Origin: Nitrososphaerales archaeon
GTDB taxonomy: Archaea > Thermoproteota > Nitrososphaeria > Nitrososphaerales > Gagatemarchaeaceae
Reading direction: 5' to 3'
NCBI GenBank assembly: GCA_030038395.1
Contig: JASHOZ010000068.1
Coordinates: 1 to 48,211, forward strand
Length of the DNA: 48,211 nucleotides
The position numbers and the translations under genes are program-made. Shown here piece by piece: positions 3,858-28,113 of this stretch. The notes beneath the pieces were generated by a model that worked only from the letters and a program-made list of their open reading frames with translations, did not search any database and was not told the origin of the DNA. Position 1 is the stretch's first letter, and each line of letters starts with the position of its first letter.

Positions 3858-5516
3858 TTGATCACGCTCCCTGAGTTCCTCTCGGTTGCGCTGATCCTTG
3901 GGGCGTCCCTGTTTCTGGCGTGGCTGACCGCCCCATATCTCGTAAGGGTCTACAAGCGCGTCCCCGGCCGTCTCGACAGGGTCCTGAACCCGGTCGAGAA
4001 GGGAGTCTACAAGCTCGCAGGCGTCGATGAAGAGCACAGGATGGGGTGGAAGGAGTACTTCCTCGCGGGCCTCTGCGTGAACATCGTCCAGATGGTCATC
4101 GCGTACCTCATCCTCGTCTTCCAGGGCTCGCTACCGCTGAACCCCCAGGGCTTCCCCGGACTCAGCTGGGACCTCGCATTCAATACCGTGATCTCCTTCG
4201 GAACGAACACGAACCTGCAGCACTACGCGGGGGAGGTCACTCTGTCCTATCTCAGCCAGATGACCGCCATCCAGTTCCTCCAGTTCACCTCCGCCGCGAC
4301 TGGGATCTGCATGGGCGTGGCGATGGTGAGGGGTTTCATCGTGGGGTCGAAGGACATGGGGAACTTCTACGTCGATTTCGTCAGGACGTTGACGCGCATC
4401 CTGATACCGTTCTGCCTTGTCGCTGCGGTCGTGCTGGTGGCCCTCGGAGTCCCCCAGACGCTGAGCGGGTACACCACAGTCACCACAGTCGAAGGGGCCT
4501 CGCGGTCGATACTGGTGGGGCCAGTAGCATCTCTCGTGTCGATAATGCAACTCGGGACCAACGGTGGGGGCTACTACGGCGCGAACGCCGCATACCCGTT
4601 CATGAACCCCAGCCCTCTCTCAGACGTCTTCGAGATCGGCCTGATGCTCCTCCTCCCGACCGCACTGATCTTCGTCTTCGGGGAGCTCCTGGGAAAGAAG
4701 CGCGAAACCAGACCGATCCTTATCGGGGCATATGGGCTCTTTATCATCGACCTAGGGATAGCCTTCATCCCCAACGCGCCGGCCGTCGGGCAAGGGATAG
4801 AGACGCGGATAGGCGGGTTCATGTCCGTGTTCTGGACTGTGGTAACTACCGCGGTCACGACGGGCTCGGTGAACACCACGCTGTCCGCGATGCACCCGCT
4901 GGTCATCCTCGCCGCCTTCATGGGGATGCTGATCCAGTCTACGCCGGGCGGGAAAGGCGTGGGTCTGATGTACATGGTGATGTACATTGTCATCACCGTC
5001 TTCATAGTCGGCCTGATGTCCGGCAGGACGCCGGAATACCTAGGGATCAAGATAACGAGCAGGGACGTGAAGCTCGTGATGCTCGCGTTCCTCATCCACC
5101 CCATCATAATCCTGATCCCCACCGTCCTGGCGTACGCCTCGGGGGCGGCCGCGGCGATTGGCGTCAACGGAGCTCCAATCGGCTTCACACAGATACTCTA
5201 CGAGTTCACGTCTGCGGCGTCTAACAACGGTTCGGATTTCCTGGGTACCGCAGCGAACACCCCCTTCTTCAACGTCGCAACGGCTGTTGTGATCTTCCTG
5301 GGACGATACGGGCCTATCGCCATTCTGATGGCGCTGGGGGGTTCCATGATCGGCAGGGCGAGGACAGCGGTCTCGGGCCTCCGGACGGACAGCATCACGT
5401 TCTCGTTGGTCCTCATCGGGAGCATACTCATACTGGTCGTGCTCACATTCTTCCCCTTCCTCGTCCTGGGACCGATTCAGTCCTACTTCCAAGGGAGCGT
5501 GAATGGCTTTGGATAG
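3858..5516 (+). CDS. kdpA: Potassium-transporting ATPase, K+-channel subunit A
   Basis: KdpA (552 residues, about the family's length) is the membrane subunit that selects and moves K+ in the Kdp pump. All four selectivity-filter loops are recognisable: TNTNLQHY near residue 117, GTNGGGYYG near 233, TTGSVNT near 335 and NNGSDF near 456. These are the four MPM-repeat pore loops that descend from K+ channels. The start is TTG 3858. The 3' end overlaps kdpB by 14 nt, so the subunits are translationally coupled. No kdpF is visible; it is often too small or missing. KdpDE-type sensor genes are not in the window. Confidence 0.96.
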   Translation: MITLPEFLSVALILGASLFLAWLTAPYLVRVYKRVPGRLDRVLNPVEKGVYKLAGVDEEHRMGWKEYFLAGLCVNIVQMVIAYLILVFQGSLPLNPQGFPGLSWDLAFNTVISFGTNTNLQHYAGEVTLSYLSQMTAIQFLQFTSAATGICMGVAMVRGFIVGSKDMGNFYVDFVRTLTRILIPFCLVAAVVLVALGVPQTLSGYTTVTTVEGASRSILVGPVASLVSIMQLGTNGGGYYGANAAYPFMNPSPLSDVFEIGLMLLLPTALIFVFGELLGKKRETRPILIGAYGLFIIDLGIAFIPNAPAVGQGIETRIGGFMSVFWTVVTTAVTTGSVNTTLSAMHPLVILAAFMGMLIQSTPGGKGVGLMYMVMYIVITVFIVGLMSGRTPEYLGIKITSRDVKLVMLAFLIHPIIILIPTVLAYASGAAAAIGVNGAPIGFTQILYEFTSAASNNGSDFLGTAANTPFFNVATAVVIFLGRYGPIAILMALGGSMIGRARTAVSGLRTDSITFSLVLIGSILILVVLTFFPFLVLGPIQSYFQGSVNGFG

Positions 5517-7644
5517 CGCGCCTGGCAGGCGAGGGCGGTTCAGCCGCCTCCCTCCATTCACCTCTCAAGTCCTCAAGGACTCGGTCGTCAGGCTCAGTCC
5601 TTTCTCTCTGCTGTCAAATCCCGTGATGTTCATAGTGGAGATGACATTCCTCGTGGTGGCGGCCATGGCGGTCTACCCGCAGGGCTTCGGCAGCGTGGCG
5701 TCCGCGTCGAAGCAGACCTTCTACCTCGAAGTAGCCGCCATCCTCATCATTACCGTGTGGTTCAGCACGCTTGCGGACGCGCTAGCCGAACAGCAGGCCC
5801 GTAACACGGCGAGCAGCCTTCGTCGCCTCGAGACTGAGGTCACGAGCAGGAAGGTCATCAAGCAGGGGTGGGCGACCGACATGGTCCCGACGAAGTCCAC
5901 GGACCTGCGGAAAGGGGACCTTGTCCTCCTCGAGAAGGGTGAGACGATTCCCATTGACGCGGAGGTGATCGAAGGAATCGCGATGGTCGACGAGTCCCTG
6001 ATGACAGGGGAGTCCGCGCCCGTCAGGAAAGCACCAGGGGACTCGGTGATCGGCGGGTCCAGGGTGGTCACCGACACCCTCACGGTGAAGGTGACCGCGA
6101 ACCCGGGCGAGACGTTCATCGATCAGATGATACACCTAGTGGAGTCCTCGAAGCGTCCCAAGACGCCGAACGAGCAGGCAGTGACCATGGTCCTCCTGGG
6201 CCTGACCGCGATATTCACAATAATCATAGTCTCGCTGCTGGGCCTCTCCATCACTCTTCACCTCGGGGCCGACCTCTCCGTGCTGATAGCCCTCTATGTC
6301 TGCCTGCTTCCGACCACCATAGGGGCGCTCCTTCCGGCGATCGGCCTCTCCGGGGTGTCGCGACTCTACGCGAACAGGATAGTCGCGAAGTCGGGGAAGG
6401 CCGTCGAGACCGCAGGGGATGTCGACGTCATCCTCTTGGACAAGACCGGCACCATAACGGTGGGGAACAGGCAGGCGATTGAGTTCATCCCCTTCGAGGG
6501 TCACACGGTCAAGGAGGTGGGGGAGGCCTCGTTCCTGTCCTCGTGGTACGACGACACGCCTGAAGGGAGGAGCATAATCCGCCTCGCATACGACAGCGGA
6601 TACATCCCGAAGGAGCTAAACTCACTCGAACTCTCGAAGGTCTACCCATTCTCCGCCACCTCGAGAACGAGCGGCGTCAAGATGAGCCGGGGCTTGATGC
6701 TCGGGCTGCCAAAGGGCATAGACAGCGGGGGGGAGAGAAGGAGGTTCAGGAGGAAGGCGCCGGAGGCGCTCGAGGGCCTCGACGAGAACGAGCCGGAAGT
6801 CGAGGTCCTGAAGGGGGCGCCAGACTCCATGAAGAGCAGCCTAGGCGCCGTCCCTCCTCTCTACGACGAGGTGGTCAATGGAGTGTCCGGCGCAGGGGAG
6901 ACTCCCATCGTCGTCTCGCGCAACGGCTCCGCGCTCGGCGTGATAAGGCTGAAGGACGTCTTGAAGGAGGGAATCCGGGACAAGGTCATGGCCGTTAAGG
7001 CCATGGACATCAGGCCAGTCATGATTACGGGCGACCAGCCCCTCACCGCGAAGAGCATAGCTTCTGAGGTGGGGATTGACGAGTATGTCCCGCAGGCGAG
7101 GCCCGAAGTGAAGTTCAGCATCGTCCAGAAGGAGCAGAAGGACTCCCGCATCGTCGCGATGATAGGGGACGGGACCAATGACGCTCCCGCCCTGGCCGTC
7201 GCCGACGTGGGGCTGGCGATGAGCTCAGGGACCGAGGCTGCCAAGGAGGCCGCGAACATGGTGGACCTGGAGTCCAACCCCGCGAAGGTGATAGAGGTCG
7301 TGATGCTCGGCAAGCAGCTCCTGATGACGAGAGGGGCGGTGACCGCATTCAGCATAGCGAACGACGTCGCCAAATATTTCGCGATAGTGCCCGTCCTCTT
7401 CTCTGCGGCCATACCTCAGCTGAACATCCTCGGGCTTGGCCTCGAGAGCGCCGTTCTCTCGGCCCTCATATTCAACGCGATCATCATTCCGATGCTGATT
7501 CCCTTGGCGATGAGAGGGGTGTCGTTCAAGCCGTCGGGCACGATGTCTATCTTCCTCCGCAACGTGATGGTATGGGGGGTCGGCGGCGTGATCGTCCCAT
7601 TCGTAGGCATAAAGCTGATCGACCTGCTGATCTCGGTGATATAG
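5503..7644 (+). CDS. kdpB: Potassium-transporting P-type ATPase, subunit B
   Basis: KdpB (713 residues) is the P-type ATPase that drives K+ uptake. It has the actuator motif TGES (Ser at about 171), the phosphorylation motif DKTGT with Asp313, the nucleotide-binding KGA around residue 430 (KGS in many homologues) and the hinge GDGTNDAPALAVADVG. Membrane segments flank the cytoplasmic domains. It is longer than the E. coli protein (682). Much of the excess is a highly charged insert of about 30 residues in the nucleotide-binding domain (residues 400-430, including GGERRRFRRKAPEALEGLDE). The stop is followed immediately by kdpC. Confidence 0.96.
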   Translation: MALDSAPGRRGRFSRLPPFTSQVLKDSVVRLSPFSLLSNPVMFIVEMTFLVVAAMAVYPQGFGSVASASKQTFYLEVAAILIITVWFSTLADALAEQQARNTASSLRRLETEVTSRKVIKQGWATDMVPTKSTDLRKGDLVLLEKGETIPIDAEVIEGIAMVDESLMTGESAPVRKAPGDSVIGGSRVVTDTLTVKVTANPGETFIDQMIHLVESSKRPKTPNEQAVTMVLLGLTAIFTIIIVSLLGLSITLHLGADLSVLIALYVCLLPTTIGALLPAIGLSGVSRLYANRIVAKSGKAVETAGDVDVILLDKTGTITVGNRQAIEFIPFEGHTVKEVGEASFLSSWYDDTPEGRSIIRLAYDSGYIPKELNSLELSKVYPFSATSRTSGVKMSRGLMLGLPKGIDSGGERRRFRRKAPEALEGLDENEPEVEVLKGAPDSMKSSLGAVPPLYDEVVNGVSGAGETPIVVSRNGSALGVIRLKDVLKEGIRDKVMAVKAMDIRPVMITGDQPLTAKSIASEVGIDEYVPQARPEVKFSIVQKEQKDSRIVAMIGDGTNDAPALAVADVGLAMSSGTEAAKEAANMVDLESNPAKVIEVVMLGKQLLMTRGAVTAFSIANDVAKYFAIVPVLFSAAIPQLNILGLGLESAVLSALIFNAIIIPMLIPLAMRGVSFKPSGTMSIFLRNVMVWGVGGVIVPFVGIKLIDLLISVI

Positions 7645-8109: not shown

Positions 8110-8128
8110 TGTGCCGGCCGCGCTCCGT

Positions 8129-8425
8129 TCAGTGCGCTTTGAGCTTCTTCTTCTCTTCTCGCTTGAGTTTGTCGCGCTTCGCACTTTCCCTGCGCTCGTC
8201 GTACTCACCGAGGGGAGCCTCGGACTCCACGAAGCCGTGGTGGATCTCGAACATCCGCTTCACTATGCCCTCCTTCACCGGGTCTCGCTTCGCAAACCTC
8301 ACCGAGAGGTTCCTCCTGTCTAGGACCGTCCACTCGAACCCATCATGCTCCTTCAGCTCTCTTATCGCCTCCTCCATGGCGAACTCGTTTCCGAAGAGGC
8401 CACGAATCTCCCACAGCCTGGCCAT
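8129..8425 (-). CDS. Small conserved hypothetical protein
   Basis: I cannot name this 98-residue protein. It is soluble, with an apparent beta-alpha-beta-beta-alpha fold in residues 1-70 (IRGLFGNEFAMEEAIRELKE, then FEWTVLDRRNLSVRF) and a strongly basic, probably helical tail rich in Lys and Arg (KRDKLKREEKKKLKAH) that could bind nucleic acid. The gene converges on kdpC with 19 nt between the stops. Its TATA-like box CTAAAAGC (8449-8457) lies 28 nt upstream of the ATG and overlaps the stop codon of the next gene, so it can be transcribed separately as a leaderless mRNA. Confidence 0.6.
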   Translation of the reverse strand: MARLWEIRGLFGNEFAMEEAIRELKEHDGFEWTVLDRRNLSVRFAKRDPVKEGIVKRMFEIHHGFVESEAPLGEYDERRESAKRDKLKREEKKKLKAH

Positions 8426-8451
8426 GGACGTTCGGTCGCGCGCGGACGCTT

Positions 8452-10605
8452 TTAGGCGTGCCCTTTCCCGCTTGACAGCTGCGAGCGGAGCGTCTCGGGG
8501 TCAGTGGCAGGCAAGTCGCACGTGAGGTTCCTGCAGACGTACGCTGTAGGTCTGACCCCCGGCCGTCGCCCATCTAAGAGGCCGGTGAGTTCGGCGAGCT
8601 CGTTGAAGGGAAGAGTGTGGGCGGGGATGACGACCTTGTCGGGGAGGAAGGGGCGCCACACCTCGCGCATCAGCGGCATTCCACTCTCTCTTGTCTTCGA
8701 AGCCACGACGACCGCGAGCATGCCGTTCGACAGGAGGTCGAACGCGGTCAGCATCGCGGCGTGCCCTCCCGGGTCGCGGTCAATCTCTCCCCCGAATGCT
8801 TTGAGGATGCGCTCCGCGGCGCCTCTGAGCTCCGCCTTCCCCGTGACCTCGGCAAGGCGAGTCAGGACGATGGCCGCCGCCGAGTTTCCCGACGGGATGA
8901 CCCCGTCATGCCCCTCCTTAAGGCGCGCCGGGACGTTCTCCACGGTGAGATACAGCCCGCCCGCCTTCTTGTCCTCGAAGAGGTCCATCATCACGCCCGA
9001 AAGCCTGAGCGCTTCCGAGAGCCACCTTGGCTTTCCCGACGCTTCGAATAGGTCCAGGAGCCCCCCAGCTAGGAAGGCGTAGTCGTCGAGCGTCCCGTCA
9101 AGGGCGGACTCGCCGTCGGCGAATCTTCTCAGGAGCCTCCCGCCCCGTTGGTTCTTGTCGAGCACGAACGCAGCCGCCCGTTCGGCGGCCGCCACGTGCT
9201 TCGGGTTCCCGGCAACAGCACCAACGAATGAGAGCGACGAGATTGCGAGCCCGTTCCAGGAGGTCAGCACCTTGGTATCTGTCGCCGGCCTAGGTCTCTT
9301 TCTACGCTCTTCGTAGAGGGAACTCGTCCATAGCCGCGCTTCGCCGGAGACGGCGTCTCCTTGGAGGGGCTGGCGGAGATGCAGAATCGACCTCCCGTCG
9401 TGGTTCCCGCTACCGGTCACGCCGTAGGCGGCGCAGAACCTTCTCGCGTCCCCCTCCCCGAGCACGTGCTCCACCTCCGAAGGCGTCCATGTGTAGAACG
9501 CCCCTTCGCCCTCGCCGGTGTCAGCGTCCTGCGCGGAGTAGAAACCCCCTTCCTTGTCTCTCATCTCGCCCAGCAGCCATGCGACGCACTCCTCCGCCAC
9601 GTCCAGATATCCGCGCTCGCCCGTGGTCTGGTAGGCTTCGGAGTAGAGTCTCACGAGGAGTGCGTTGTCGTACAGCATCTTCTCAAAGTGCGGCACGAGC
9701 CATGTCCTGTCGGTCGAATAGCGGTGGAAGCCACCGCCTAGGTGGTCCCTGATTCCGCCCATCATCATCCCATCCAGCGTCTTGCGGACGCTCCGGAGCG
9801 CTGTCTCCTTCCCCGTCCTGAAGTAGTATCGAAGAAGGTAGCCCCCGGCGACCGGGAGCGGGAACTTCGGCGGGCCTCCGAACCCCCCCCACTCGGGGTC
9901 GAAGGACGACACCAAGGAGGAGTACCCGTCGTCCAGCAGGCTCGCATCCAGGCGCTGGAGCCCCTTGGGGGCCAACTCCTCAGTTATCGCGCGTGTCAGT
10001 TGGCTGGCGTTGTCTACTACGTCGGCTTTCCTCTCCCGCCACATTTCCGCGACCGTGTCCAGAACCTGTCTGAAGCTGGGCATGCCGTACCTCGGCTCTG
10101 GAGGGAAGTACGTGCCTCCATAGAACGGCTTCAGGTCTGGAGTGAGGAAGACGGAGAGGGGCCAGCCGCCGCTCCCTGTGAGGGCCTGCACGGCCCGCAT
10201 GTAGTAGGCGTCGACCTCGGGCATCTCCTCCCTGTCGACTTTTATCGGGATGAAGTTCTTGTTGATCAGCGCGGAGGTCTTCTCGTCCTCGAACGACTCG
10301 CGGGCGAACTGATGGCACCAGTGGCAGGTCGAATATCCTATGCTGAGGAATATCGGCTTCCCGTCGTTCTTCGCCTTCCGAAACGCCTCCTCCCCCCAAG
10401 GCCTCCACATGACGGGATTGTAGGCGTGCTCCCTCAGGTACGGGCTCTTCTCATTGATCAGCAGGTTGGGCTTGTGGGACAGCTCGGGCCGAAGCGCTCT
10501 CTCGTGTAATTCAACGTTTTCCCTTTGATAATCCTTAACACCCCAACGCGGGGCGAGGGGCCGCAGGGTAGTAGCCGGACTACAGGTTTCCAGATTGCAG
10601 TACAA
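8452..10605 (-). CDS. YyaL/SSP411-type thioredoxin-domain protein (DUF255 family)
   Basis: The protein combines an N-terminal thioredoxin-like domain ([15 protein letters not shown], then the CxxC motif STCHWCHQF with Cys94 and Cys97 counted from TTG 10605, then [11 protein letters not shown] and GGTYFPP) with an alpha/alpha-toroid region of about 450 residues resembling glycan epimerases. This matches bacterial YyaL and human SPATA20. The biochemical role is not settled; a redox or thiol function is inferred. The N-terminus is uncertain. ATG 10686 and TTG 10605 are the only standard in-frame starts before the conserved INEKSPYL block, and both reach into the divergent MFS gene. The AT-rich box at 10522-10537 would start transcription inside the frame, downstream of both. 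Confidence 0.85.
10522..10537. promoter_or_regulatory. AT-rich bidirectional promoter region
   Basis: The block CTTTGATAATCCTTAA is the only AT-rich stretch between the divergent YyaL-like and MFS genes, and it can be read as a TATA box in either direction. Downstream transcription would start near 10554 on the plus strand and near 10500-10507 on the minus strand. Confidence 0.4.
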
Positions 10606-26114: not shown

Positions 26115-26121
26115 TTTTATA
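26115..26121 (+). promoter_or_regulatory. TATA box of rps12, inside the operon
   Basis: TTTTATA lies in the 38-nt gap after nusA and predicts transcription from about 26144-26148, immediately before the TTG start at 26149. The intein-bearing gene can thus be transcribed independently of the polymerase genes as a near-leaderless mRNA. A GGAGG at 26130-26134 is 14 nt from the start, too far for a normal Shine-Dalgarno. Confidence 0.5.
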
Positions 26122-26148: not shown

Positions 26149-28113
26149 TTGCCAGGGTCTCCGCGCGGTGAATTCGCTGCAAGGCAGGTCTCTCAAAAGA
26201 GGCAGAGGCTCCGCTGGTCGAACAAGTGGTACAAGAGGCGCAAGCTCGGGCTCGACTACAAGTCAGACCCGCTCGAAGGCGCCCCTCAGGCAAGGGGGAT
26301 CGTCCTTGAGAAAGTGGGGGTCGAGTCGAAGCAGCCGAACTCGGCCATCAGAAAGTGCGTCAGCTCGGACACGCGCGTCTTGACCGGGAGGAACAACTTC
26401 GTCAGGATAAGGGACGCCCGCGGAGAGGACATGGAGCTAACATTCCTTGACCTGGACTCGAAGGAGCTAGGTTCGGCCCCCGTCGTCGATCACTTCGAAC
26501 TCACGGACGACGAAGCACGGAGCGCCGGAGTACACGAGATCGTGACCGAGGCGGGCCGCAGACTCGTGGCGAGCGGCGACCATCCCGTGTTCACCTCAAG
26601 GGGCGTAGTCGAGGCGCGAAGCCTTCGGACTGGCGACAGAGTCGTCGCACTCCCCGGCGAGCCTCTCCCGATCACCAAGAGCAAGAAGGTCGTAGTCGAC
26701 GAAACCGATGTGAGGGACGCTGCACCGGACAAGTCAGACGACGACAGAATCATCTCGGAGCTGAGGCGGCTGGAACTTCTCCCTTTGCGCTTCGACAGTC
26801 CCAGACTCCCGGCGGTCCTTCGTCTCTTGGGCCATGCATTCGGCGACGGGACTCTGAGCTACTCCAGAGCGGGAACTGGATTCGGCGGGAAGTTCGTCGC
26901 TTCGGGGCGGCCCGACGACATCGCAGCCATCTGGAAGGATATCGCCTTGCTAGGCTTCCACGCCTCACCCCTCTACAGAGGCATCGCGATAAGCGTCGTC
27001 AATACGCAGCAGGGACAGAGAACCATTGCCGGCTCGTACAACGCGGCCTCTTGCAGTTCGATCGTGCTCTTCACCTTCCTCAAGAGTCTAGGGGCTCCGG
27101 TAGGCGAGAAGGCGACTCTGAGGTACAGACTCCCCAGTTGGATGATCACGGCGCCGGACTGGGCGAAGGCCGAGTTCTTGGCGGCATACTTCGGCGGCGA
27201 ACTCGAAGGGCCACGGTTCAACAGGGGCACGGTATGCCCTCCGTCCTTCTCGGTGAGCAAGACTGCCGAGGTCCTTGACAGCGGCGAGGACTTCGTAGAA
27301 GACATCGAGACGCTTCTCGGGAGCCTCGGCGTCCGCACGTCCAGCTTTGCGATCCACCCGTCGGCGTACGGAAAGGACGGGAAGGTCAGCTACAGGATCG
27401 TGATTGCAGTTGGGTCCAGCATGCAGAATCTCACGAAGCTGTTCGGGACCGTCGGCTTCGCATACCAGTCCGACAGGGAAGCCCAGGGGCGTTACGTCTA
27501 CGAGTTCCTTTCGATGAAACTGCGGAGGGTCGAACAGGCCAAGCGTGCCTACGCGAGGGCCCTGGAGCTCCGAAAGCTGGGTCTTACCTACCGCGAGGTC
27601 GCAGATACCCTGCGCCGAGAAGGGTACGCGTGGGTTCAGACGTTCAACGTGAGCAGATGGCTTTGGCACGGGGTCAAGGTTAGAGACTCTCTGTCCACCA
27701 CGAGGTCCGGACCGAAGTTCGAGGAGTGGGTCGCCGAGCACACTGTGGGACTTCCGCGCAATGGGCTCGTCTGGGACAAGGTCGCAGGCAGTCGAAGACT
27801 TTCCAAGAGGGTCGTCCTCCAAGACGTGACTGTGGGGAACGCCAGCCACAACTTCTTCGCGAACGGTCTGCTGACCTCGAACTGCGTTAGGGTCCAGATT
27901 GTGAAGAATGGCAAGCAGGTGACGGCTTTCCTCCCGGGCGACGGGGCTCTGAACTACGTCGACGAACACGACGAGGTCGTCCTGCAGGGAATAGGAGGCT
28001 CGATGAAGAGGGCGATGGGTGACATCCCGGGCGTCCGCTGGACGGTCTTCAAGGTGAACGGCGTGTCGCTTAACGAGCTCGTCTACGGCCGGAAGGAGAA
28101 GCCGAGGCGCTGA
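26149..28113 (+). CDS. rps12: Ribosomal protein S12 precursor containing an intein
   Basis: The 654-residue precursor has an N-extein of 69 residues ([20 protein letters not shown], then [40 protein letters not shown]), a 509-residue intein and a C-extein of 76 residues ([20 protein letters not shown], then [20 protein letters not shown], ending KEKPRR). Joining the exteins gives a 145-residue S12 with no residue gained or lost, the normal archaeal length. S12 monitors codon-anticodon pairing at the decoding centre. The insertion falls between Lys and Cys, six residues after the start of the PNSAIRK loop. The start is TTG 26149, supported by the TATA box at 26115. An apparent longer frame reaching back to 25882 is an artefact of overlap with nusA. 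Confidence 0.95.
26356..27882 (+). mobile_element. Intein with LAGLIDADG (DOD) homing endonuclease in S12
   Basis: The intein starts with Cys1 ([11 protein letters not shown], block A) and ends [10 protein letters not shown], with Asn509 followed by Cys+1 of the C-extein. Block B is [11 protein letters not shown] with His76 (Ser replaces the usual Thr of TxxH). The endonuclease has two dodecapeptide motifs, [11 protein letters not shown] (Asp164) and [12 protein letters not shown] (Glu282), both with acidic residues in place for Mg2+. A helix-turn-helix-like segment ([19 protein letters not shown], about residues 408-426) may help bind DNA. Block F is [18 protein letters not shown] with His498. 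The penultimate residue is Ser508 rather than the usual His. No stop or frameshift interrupts it, so both splicing and homing look potentially active. Confidence 0.95.

Follow-up and report, generated by a model that had tools for sequence, protein, structure and literature searches.

The window, meaning the whole stretch of 48,211 nucleotides that was analysed (from a Nitrososphaerales archaeon, assembly GCA_030038395.1), contains at 26149-28113 on the plus strand a gene for ribosomal protein S12 that, in the ORF reading, is open along its whole length and begins with TTG, at the position occupied by ATG in most relatives' S12. The gene is divided between PNSAIRK and CVRVQ by an in-frame intein of 509 residues (26356-27882) that runs from C1 to N509 and has a mass of 56.0 kDa; the joined flanks make up a normal archaeal S12 of 145 residues (16.3 kDa), and the precursor, at 654 residues, is 4.5-fold longer than the spliced product. 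A sequence-only reading of the locus had described an insert of 509 residues from Cys to Asn after PNSAIRK and a 145-residue S12 on joining the flanks, and coordinates, frame and junctions all agree with that description. In bacterial S12 the PNSAIRK loop contacts the decoding centre. The features of the locus are:

26115-26121, plus strand: TTTTATA, a TATA-like element ahead of the S12 gene (not confined to the intein allele)
26149-26355, plus strand: S12 N-extein, 69 residues ending QPNSAIRK, TTG start (relatives' starts; Pfam S12)
26356-27882, plus strand: intein, 509 residues, C1 to N509 (ORF, alignment, tree, fold comparison)
26572-26583, plus strand: block B SGDH, residues 73-76 (Asp and His in 23/23; Ser in 21/23, Thr in 2/23)
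26818-26850, plus strand: LAGLIDADG motif 1, 11 residues, catalytic Asp164 (Asp in 21/23)
27175-27204, plus strand: LAGLIDADG motif 2, 10 residues, catalytic Glu282 (Glu in 21/23)
27541-27690, plus strand: helix-turn-helix-like segment, a probable DNA-binding extension (labelled by eye, helices predicted)
27817-27882, plus strand: blocks F and G, 22 residues, penultimate Ser (Asp, His and terminal Asn in 23/23)
27883-28113, plus strand: S12 C-extein from the +1 Cys (CVRVQ...), including the stop (ORF; Pfam S12)

Profile searches agree with this layout. In Pfam the S12 family PF00164 matches two stretches of the ORF (1.9e-39) and PF14890 (Intein_splicing) is found in the same ORF at 8.2e-9, with 35.9 bits against a cut-off of 35.8, while LAGLIDADG_3 gives a sub-threshold match. 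Among the NCBIfam models uS12_E_A lies above its cut-off, and the intein model with the best score is the RtcB one (3.1e-79, residues 69-580), a match that stays far under the whole-protein cut-off of that model because the host is not RtcB. RpoB and RpoA' of the window have no Pfam domains besides the expected RNA polymerase ones.

Conserved residues and predicted fold

Residue counts and the intein tree are based on 23 complete S12 inteins, the partial copy of genome G035 being left out. Invariant in 23/23 are Cys1, the Asp and His of block B, the Asp and His of block F, the terminal Asn, the -1 Lys and the +1 Cys, and the ORF crosses both junctions in frame in every one of these complete copies. 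The first residue of block B is Ser in 21 copies and Thr in 2, i.e. the motif is S/TxxH instead of strict TxxH. The penultimate residue of block G is Gly in 15, Ser in 6 (the window among them), Lys in 2 and His in none (0/23); as some active inteins have no His at this position, it was not taken as defining class 1. By every core feature that can be tested the insert is a class 1 intein, with splicing itself predicted from sequence. The +1 Cys is present both in the 23 intein-bearing precursors and in 61/61 empty archaeal S12 alleles that were read; in bacterial S12 the +1 position is Val, not Cys, which would account for a restriction of the intein to archaea.

Both LAGLIDADG acids, Asp164 and Glu282, are present in 21/23 S12 inteins, including that of the window. 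The Glu of the second motif and the penultimate Ser of the window's intein are departures from the textbook pattern. The two exceptions, L085 and L086, are sister copies (from genomes G375 and G477) in which both acids are replaced, by Ser and Ala, and about 60 residues including the helix-turn-helix-like segment are deleted; their splicing residues are kept.

An AlphaFold2 model of the precursor, built from 20 aligned rows, has a mean pLDDT of 82.6; the intein is mostly predicted with confidence and the S12 N-extein is poorly predicted. The HINT part superimposes on DnaB and RecA mini-inteins with Z scores of 17-18 and deviations of 1.8-3.3 Å over 136-157 residues (6frh_A: Z 18.1, 2.6 Å, 157 aligned; 1mi8: Z 17.6, 1.8 Å, 139 aligned; 2in0: Z 17.0, 2.0 Å, 136 aligned), and the LAGLIDADG domain on I-DmoI (4unb_G), whose catalytic pair is also Asp/Glu, with Z 13.2 and 2.1 Å over 166 residues. 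The C-extein of the model matches archaeal S12 from ribosome structures. The conserved splicing and endonuclease residues, together with the predicted HINT and LAGLIDADG folds, uphold the earlier description of an endonuclease-bearing intein in S12.

Occurrence and probable movement of the insert

An insertion at the identical spot of S12 was found in 24 archaeal genomes from several phyla, with carriers in Thaumarchaeota/Nitrososphaerales, Bathyarchaeota, Crenarchaeota, Micrarchaeota, Diapherotrites, Woesearchaeota, Euryarchaeota and Aenigmatarchaeota. Most are metagenome bins and incomplete assemblies (the genome of the window is 90.7% complete); two, G194 (2,077,567 bases) and G251, are one-contig genomes. 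S12 was detectable in 140 of 151 relatives of the same genus, family or order, and eight of those 140 have the insert (G000, the genome of the window, with G023, G025, G026, G027, G033, G043 and G035), all in the window's family. Within this family of 46 genomes S12 was detectable in 38, where the site could be read as 7 full inserts, 1 insert truncated where its contig stops (G035) and 30 sites that are intact and empty; in G069, whose S12 is split over two contig ends, the piece that spans the site is empty. A phylum sample of 398 genomes, 387 of them with detectable S12, contains the S12 intein in six (the window's own genome, G194, G251, G286, G375 and G477). Scanning GTDB species genomes with the intein alignment gave 22 loci, namely 17 in S12 (six of these belonging to family genomes counted before), 3 in RpoA' and 2 in RpoB. 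The intein profile, run against 87 genomes of the phylum that includes G515, recovered once more the S12 copies of G514, G515 and G518 and matched many relatives in other genes. One full-strength S12 match was found in G225, of the family of G194, and a weak partial one in G430.

In the genome of the window S12 matches occur at the 26149-28113 locus alone. A second, intact S12 gene, which the sequence-only reading had named as a finding that would speak against it, was searched for in the 24 carriers and detected in none of them (24/24), most of these being incomplete assemblies. The G026 assembly lacks most of the S12 N-extein, and what is left is out of frame with the start (L035:881-1240 = L054); no other S12 was found in that assembly, and the damage represents either an assembly error or decay. 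Two S12 genes were seen in G082, a genome lacking the intein (G082:C65 and G082:C1); one scores more weakly and is perhaps contamination. Weak two-piece intein matches were also seen at G380:C43:1703-2653 and G155:C6:117472-117936, in ORFs of 789 and 504 residues.

In a quick tree built from 50 inteins, all 23 S12 copies fall together (SH-aLRT 90), as do 23 RtcB copies (99) and, separately, 3 RpoA' copies (97); the RtcB near-duplicates L088 and L098 were left out. Because the S12 inteins form one group, the sequences indicate that an intein lineage probably entered S12 once and that the element then spread between S12 genes. The RtcB intein of the window's genome groups with RtcB and is therefore not the source of its S12 intein.

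For the window's family a host tree was made from the NusA-like, S12 and S7 proteins. Occupancy of 8 out of 38 requires 8 changes on this tree, compared with a mean of 7.4 for shuffled labels, i.e. presence does not cluster by descent; the starred branches alone force at least 3 changes. The intein of G033, a member of another genus, groups (99) with three from the window's genus (window, G023 and G026), and the copies of G025 and G027, which belong to that genus too, fall outside; unlike the intein tree, the host tree holds the window's genus together without G033 (99/96).

In the pair L058/L071 the intein has a dS of 0.24, compared with 0.62 in RpoA', 0.77 in the NusA-like gene and 0.90 in the S12 exteins; leaving out the exteins, the difference between intein and flank is significant for RpoA' (Fisher 3e-12) and for the NusA-like gene (9e-8). 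A minus-strand gene (dS 0.54) also lies above the intein, and one flanking ORF (0.35) is not significantly above it (p = 0.12). The Fisher rows comprise RpoA', the NusA-like gene, minus 6148-7375 and plus 8111-8564; four further rows (plus 6733-7390, plus 8200-8578, minus 2206-2644 and minus 3903-4233) were omitted because these ORFs overlap others in a different frame or on a different strand; in two of the four, dN > dS. The joint row of S12 plus intein was likewise kept out of the Fisher tests. For this pair the values suggest transfer of the intein after divergence of the hosts. A sharp co-conversion border was also looked for in L058/L071, and raw nucleotide identity has no step at the intein borders; the case for transfer thus stands on synonymous sites only. 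In the endonuclease-dead pair L085/L086 the intein dS of 0.27 equals that of the flanks (0.23-0.29), as expected for vertical inheritance, and in L082/L083 the intein (1.38) exceeds its NusA-like neighbor (0.58), giving no sign of recent transfer in that pair. These data fit a scheme in which live elements move and dead ones are inherited, with one pair for each, two comparisons in all. Deep pairs such as the window and L033 were not used for timing because their synonymous sites are saturated, and the extein comparison of the window with L035 is void because the N-extein of L035 is broken. Viral carriage was considered as well and set aside: the six matches in viral contigs are weak, five being short stretches of the splicing domain and the sixth, L080, spread over the query.

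Intein dN/dS is below unity in the four pairs with dS < 1.5 (L058/L071, 0.28; L085/L086, 0.16; L082/L083, 0.09; L082/L084, 0.08). The LAGLIDADG region of the dead pair L085/L086, taken alone, gives 0.19 and is not plainly decaying, which reflects either recent inactivation or a structural function of what remains.

Proposed splicing and homing, and alternative readings

Taken together, these observations make it very probable that a canonical class 1 homing intein, related to RtcB inteins, occupies an apparently undescribed host site in uS12. The proposed sequence of events is that the whole 654-residue precursor would be translated first; the HINT domain would then remove itself by an N-S acyl shift at Cys1, attack by the +1 Cys of S12, cyclization of Asn509 and a final S-N shift, and the products would be a 145-residue S12 without a scar and the released 56-kDa endonuclease. 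The latter, a predicted monomeric two-motif LAGLIDADG enzyme, would cut empty S12 alleles at the DNA encoding 12 residues, and repair of the cut allele would copy the intein in; only spliced S12 would enter ribosomes. We infer the splicing reaction, the DNA cleavage and the incorporation of spliced S12 alone. Homing is indicated indirectly, by patchy occupancy and by the one pair of inteins that points to transfer. As no second S12 was detected in any of the 24 carriers, splicing should precede usable S12, in line with what the sequence-only reading had proposed. If so, every 30S subunit of the carriers depends on protein splicing, the intein resides in a protein that ranks among the most abundantly produced in the cell, and an endonuclease is released with every S12. 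S12 being single-copy and essential, an inserted intein could be lost by precise deletion alone, and splicing would have to persist even after death of the endonuclease.

Two claims about regulation were less successful. The suggestion that splicing is especially sensitive to redox conditions is not supported, since Cys1 is the only cysteine column of the intein conserved in 23/23 (the others are Cys in at most 11/23) and 19 of the 23 N-exteins are cysteine-free; a dedicated redox switch was accordingly rejected, there being no conserved regulatory cysteine beyond the catalytic ones. A disulfide between C1 and C+1 of the precursor is possible, as in any such intein. The TATA box ascribed to the S12 gene does exist, as TTTTATA at 26115-26121, yet, as judged by eye, intein-free S12 genes of the family have comparable elements in front of them, so that the element is not tied to the intein and an intein-linked promoter was discarded. 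Its occurrence before occupied and empty alleles alike suggests that S12 in the window's family has a promoter of its own, following the NusA-like gene.

A role for splicing, in several archaeal lineages, as a control point on ribosome number, in which S12 would be spliced on the assembling 30S subunit or licensed by it or by the state of the cell, most plainly where the endonuclease is dead, is in our judgement unlikely. Quite improbable, too, is domestication of the intein, with S12 splicing kept for its benefit as a conditional gate on ribosome assembly that responds to redox, temperature or assembly state. The S12 host is stoichiometric with ribosomes, and L085 and L086 retain their splicing residues with a dead endonuclease, in an intein whose dS (0.27 vs 0.23-0.29 for flanking genes) points to vertical inheritance and whose LAGLIDADG region still has a dN/dS of 0.19; however, retention after endonuclease death is expected anyway because loss requires an exact deletion, no second cysteine is conserved, patchy presence among close relatives suggests that the intein is dispensable, and the endonuclease acids are kept in 21/23 copies as in a selfish element. 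It is highly improbable that the insert is instead removed from RNA as an archaeal intron, or that S12 keeps the interruption and is cleaved into two pieces. LAGLIDADG enzymes do reside in archaeal introns, and endonuclease-only ORFs are found in other archaea, but the ORF is in frame across both junctions in 23/23 complete copies, the HINT blocks and the predicted fold are complete, and the +1 Cys and terminal Asn are invariant. The endonuclease-only ORFs, of about 350-440 residues (G556, G545, G591, G529, G557, G574, G590 and others), match the endonuclease part alone (positions ~131-420) and are probably free-standing or intron-borne relatives. An assembly chimaera, which the earlier reading had itself named as a possible undoing, or a pseudogene with an intact S12 elsewhere, is scarcely credible: most carriers are metagenome-assembled, the genome of the window is 90.7% complete and one allele has a broken N-extein, but recurrence in 24 assemblies, one-contig G194 and G251 included, makes chance or a chimaera very unlikely, no other S12 was detected in any carrier, and the intein is under purifying selection.

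If S12 is spliced as proposed, it becomes possible to test the speed and completeness of splicing under ribosome-level demand, a tie of splicing to 30S assembly, and the fate of an intein after homing has ceased. Among the carriers there appears to be a cultured hyperthermophile, so that such tests need not await uncultured groups.

Comparison with known inteins

The closest known elements are the RtcB inteins (NF038162), which resemble the S12 intein in architecture and provide its best intein-model match (3.1e-79). They have the catalytic Asp and Glu at the same two positions in 18/23 and 17/23 copies, respectively, and their penultimate residue is Ser in 21/23, i.e. they too are mostly without His. 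They differ in host (RtcB), in insertion site (GYDIN/CGVR) and in forming a separate tree group (SH-aLRT 99); on sequence grounds the S12 intein is thus related to the RtcB intein family and not a member of it. Besides its RtcB intein, the genome of the window is rich in such elements (L111 and L114-L123, on contigs C36, C20, C63, C39, C43, C15 and C18 of G000), with further hosts assigned by eye as a 2-oxoacid oxidoreductase beta subunit, topoisomerase VI A, a CDC48-type ATPase (at least two inteins), V-type ATPase A and aIF2 gamma.

RpoA' and RpoB/RpoB'' inteins of DPANN and Asgard archaea belong to the same family, and 3 RpoA' copies and 1 RpoB copy fall on the S12 side of the tree; unlike S12 inteins, those of RpoA' lie before the NADFDGD loop and those of RpoB before CGLVKNL. 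The latter site is occupied by an RpoB'' intein of this family in all four DPANN loci L155-L158 (G515, G518, G562 and G514). In G562 there is an RpoA' intein before the NADFDGD loop as well, in G515 and G518 the RpoB'' intein shares a contig with the S12 intein, and the RpoB'' ORF of G515 matches the family twice.

Inteins of translation proteins are already known from IF2/eIF5B and ThrRS (PMC5784728), whose hosts are an initiation factor and a synthetase, not ribosomal proteins. The available text of the literature matches listed, a set lying outside the main intein survey and InBase, holds no description of a ribosomal-protein intein, and the novelty apparently lies in the host, S12. PI-PfuI and the TliVMA and PhoVMA inteins combine HINT and LAGLIDADG domains as the S12 intein does and were recovered as structural matches, in other hosts, whereas I-DmoI consists of LAGLIDADG only and matches the endonuclease domain; identity of these four to the S12 intein is 12-21%.
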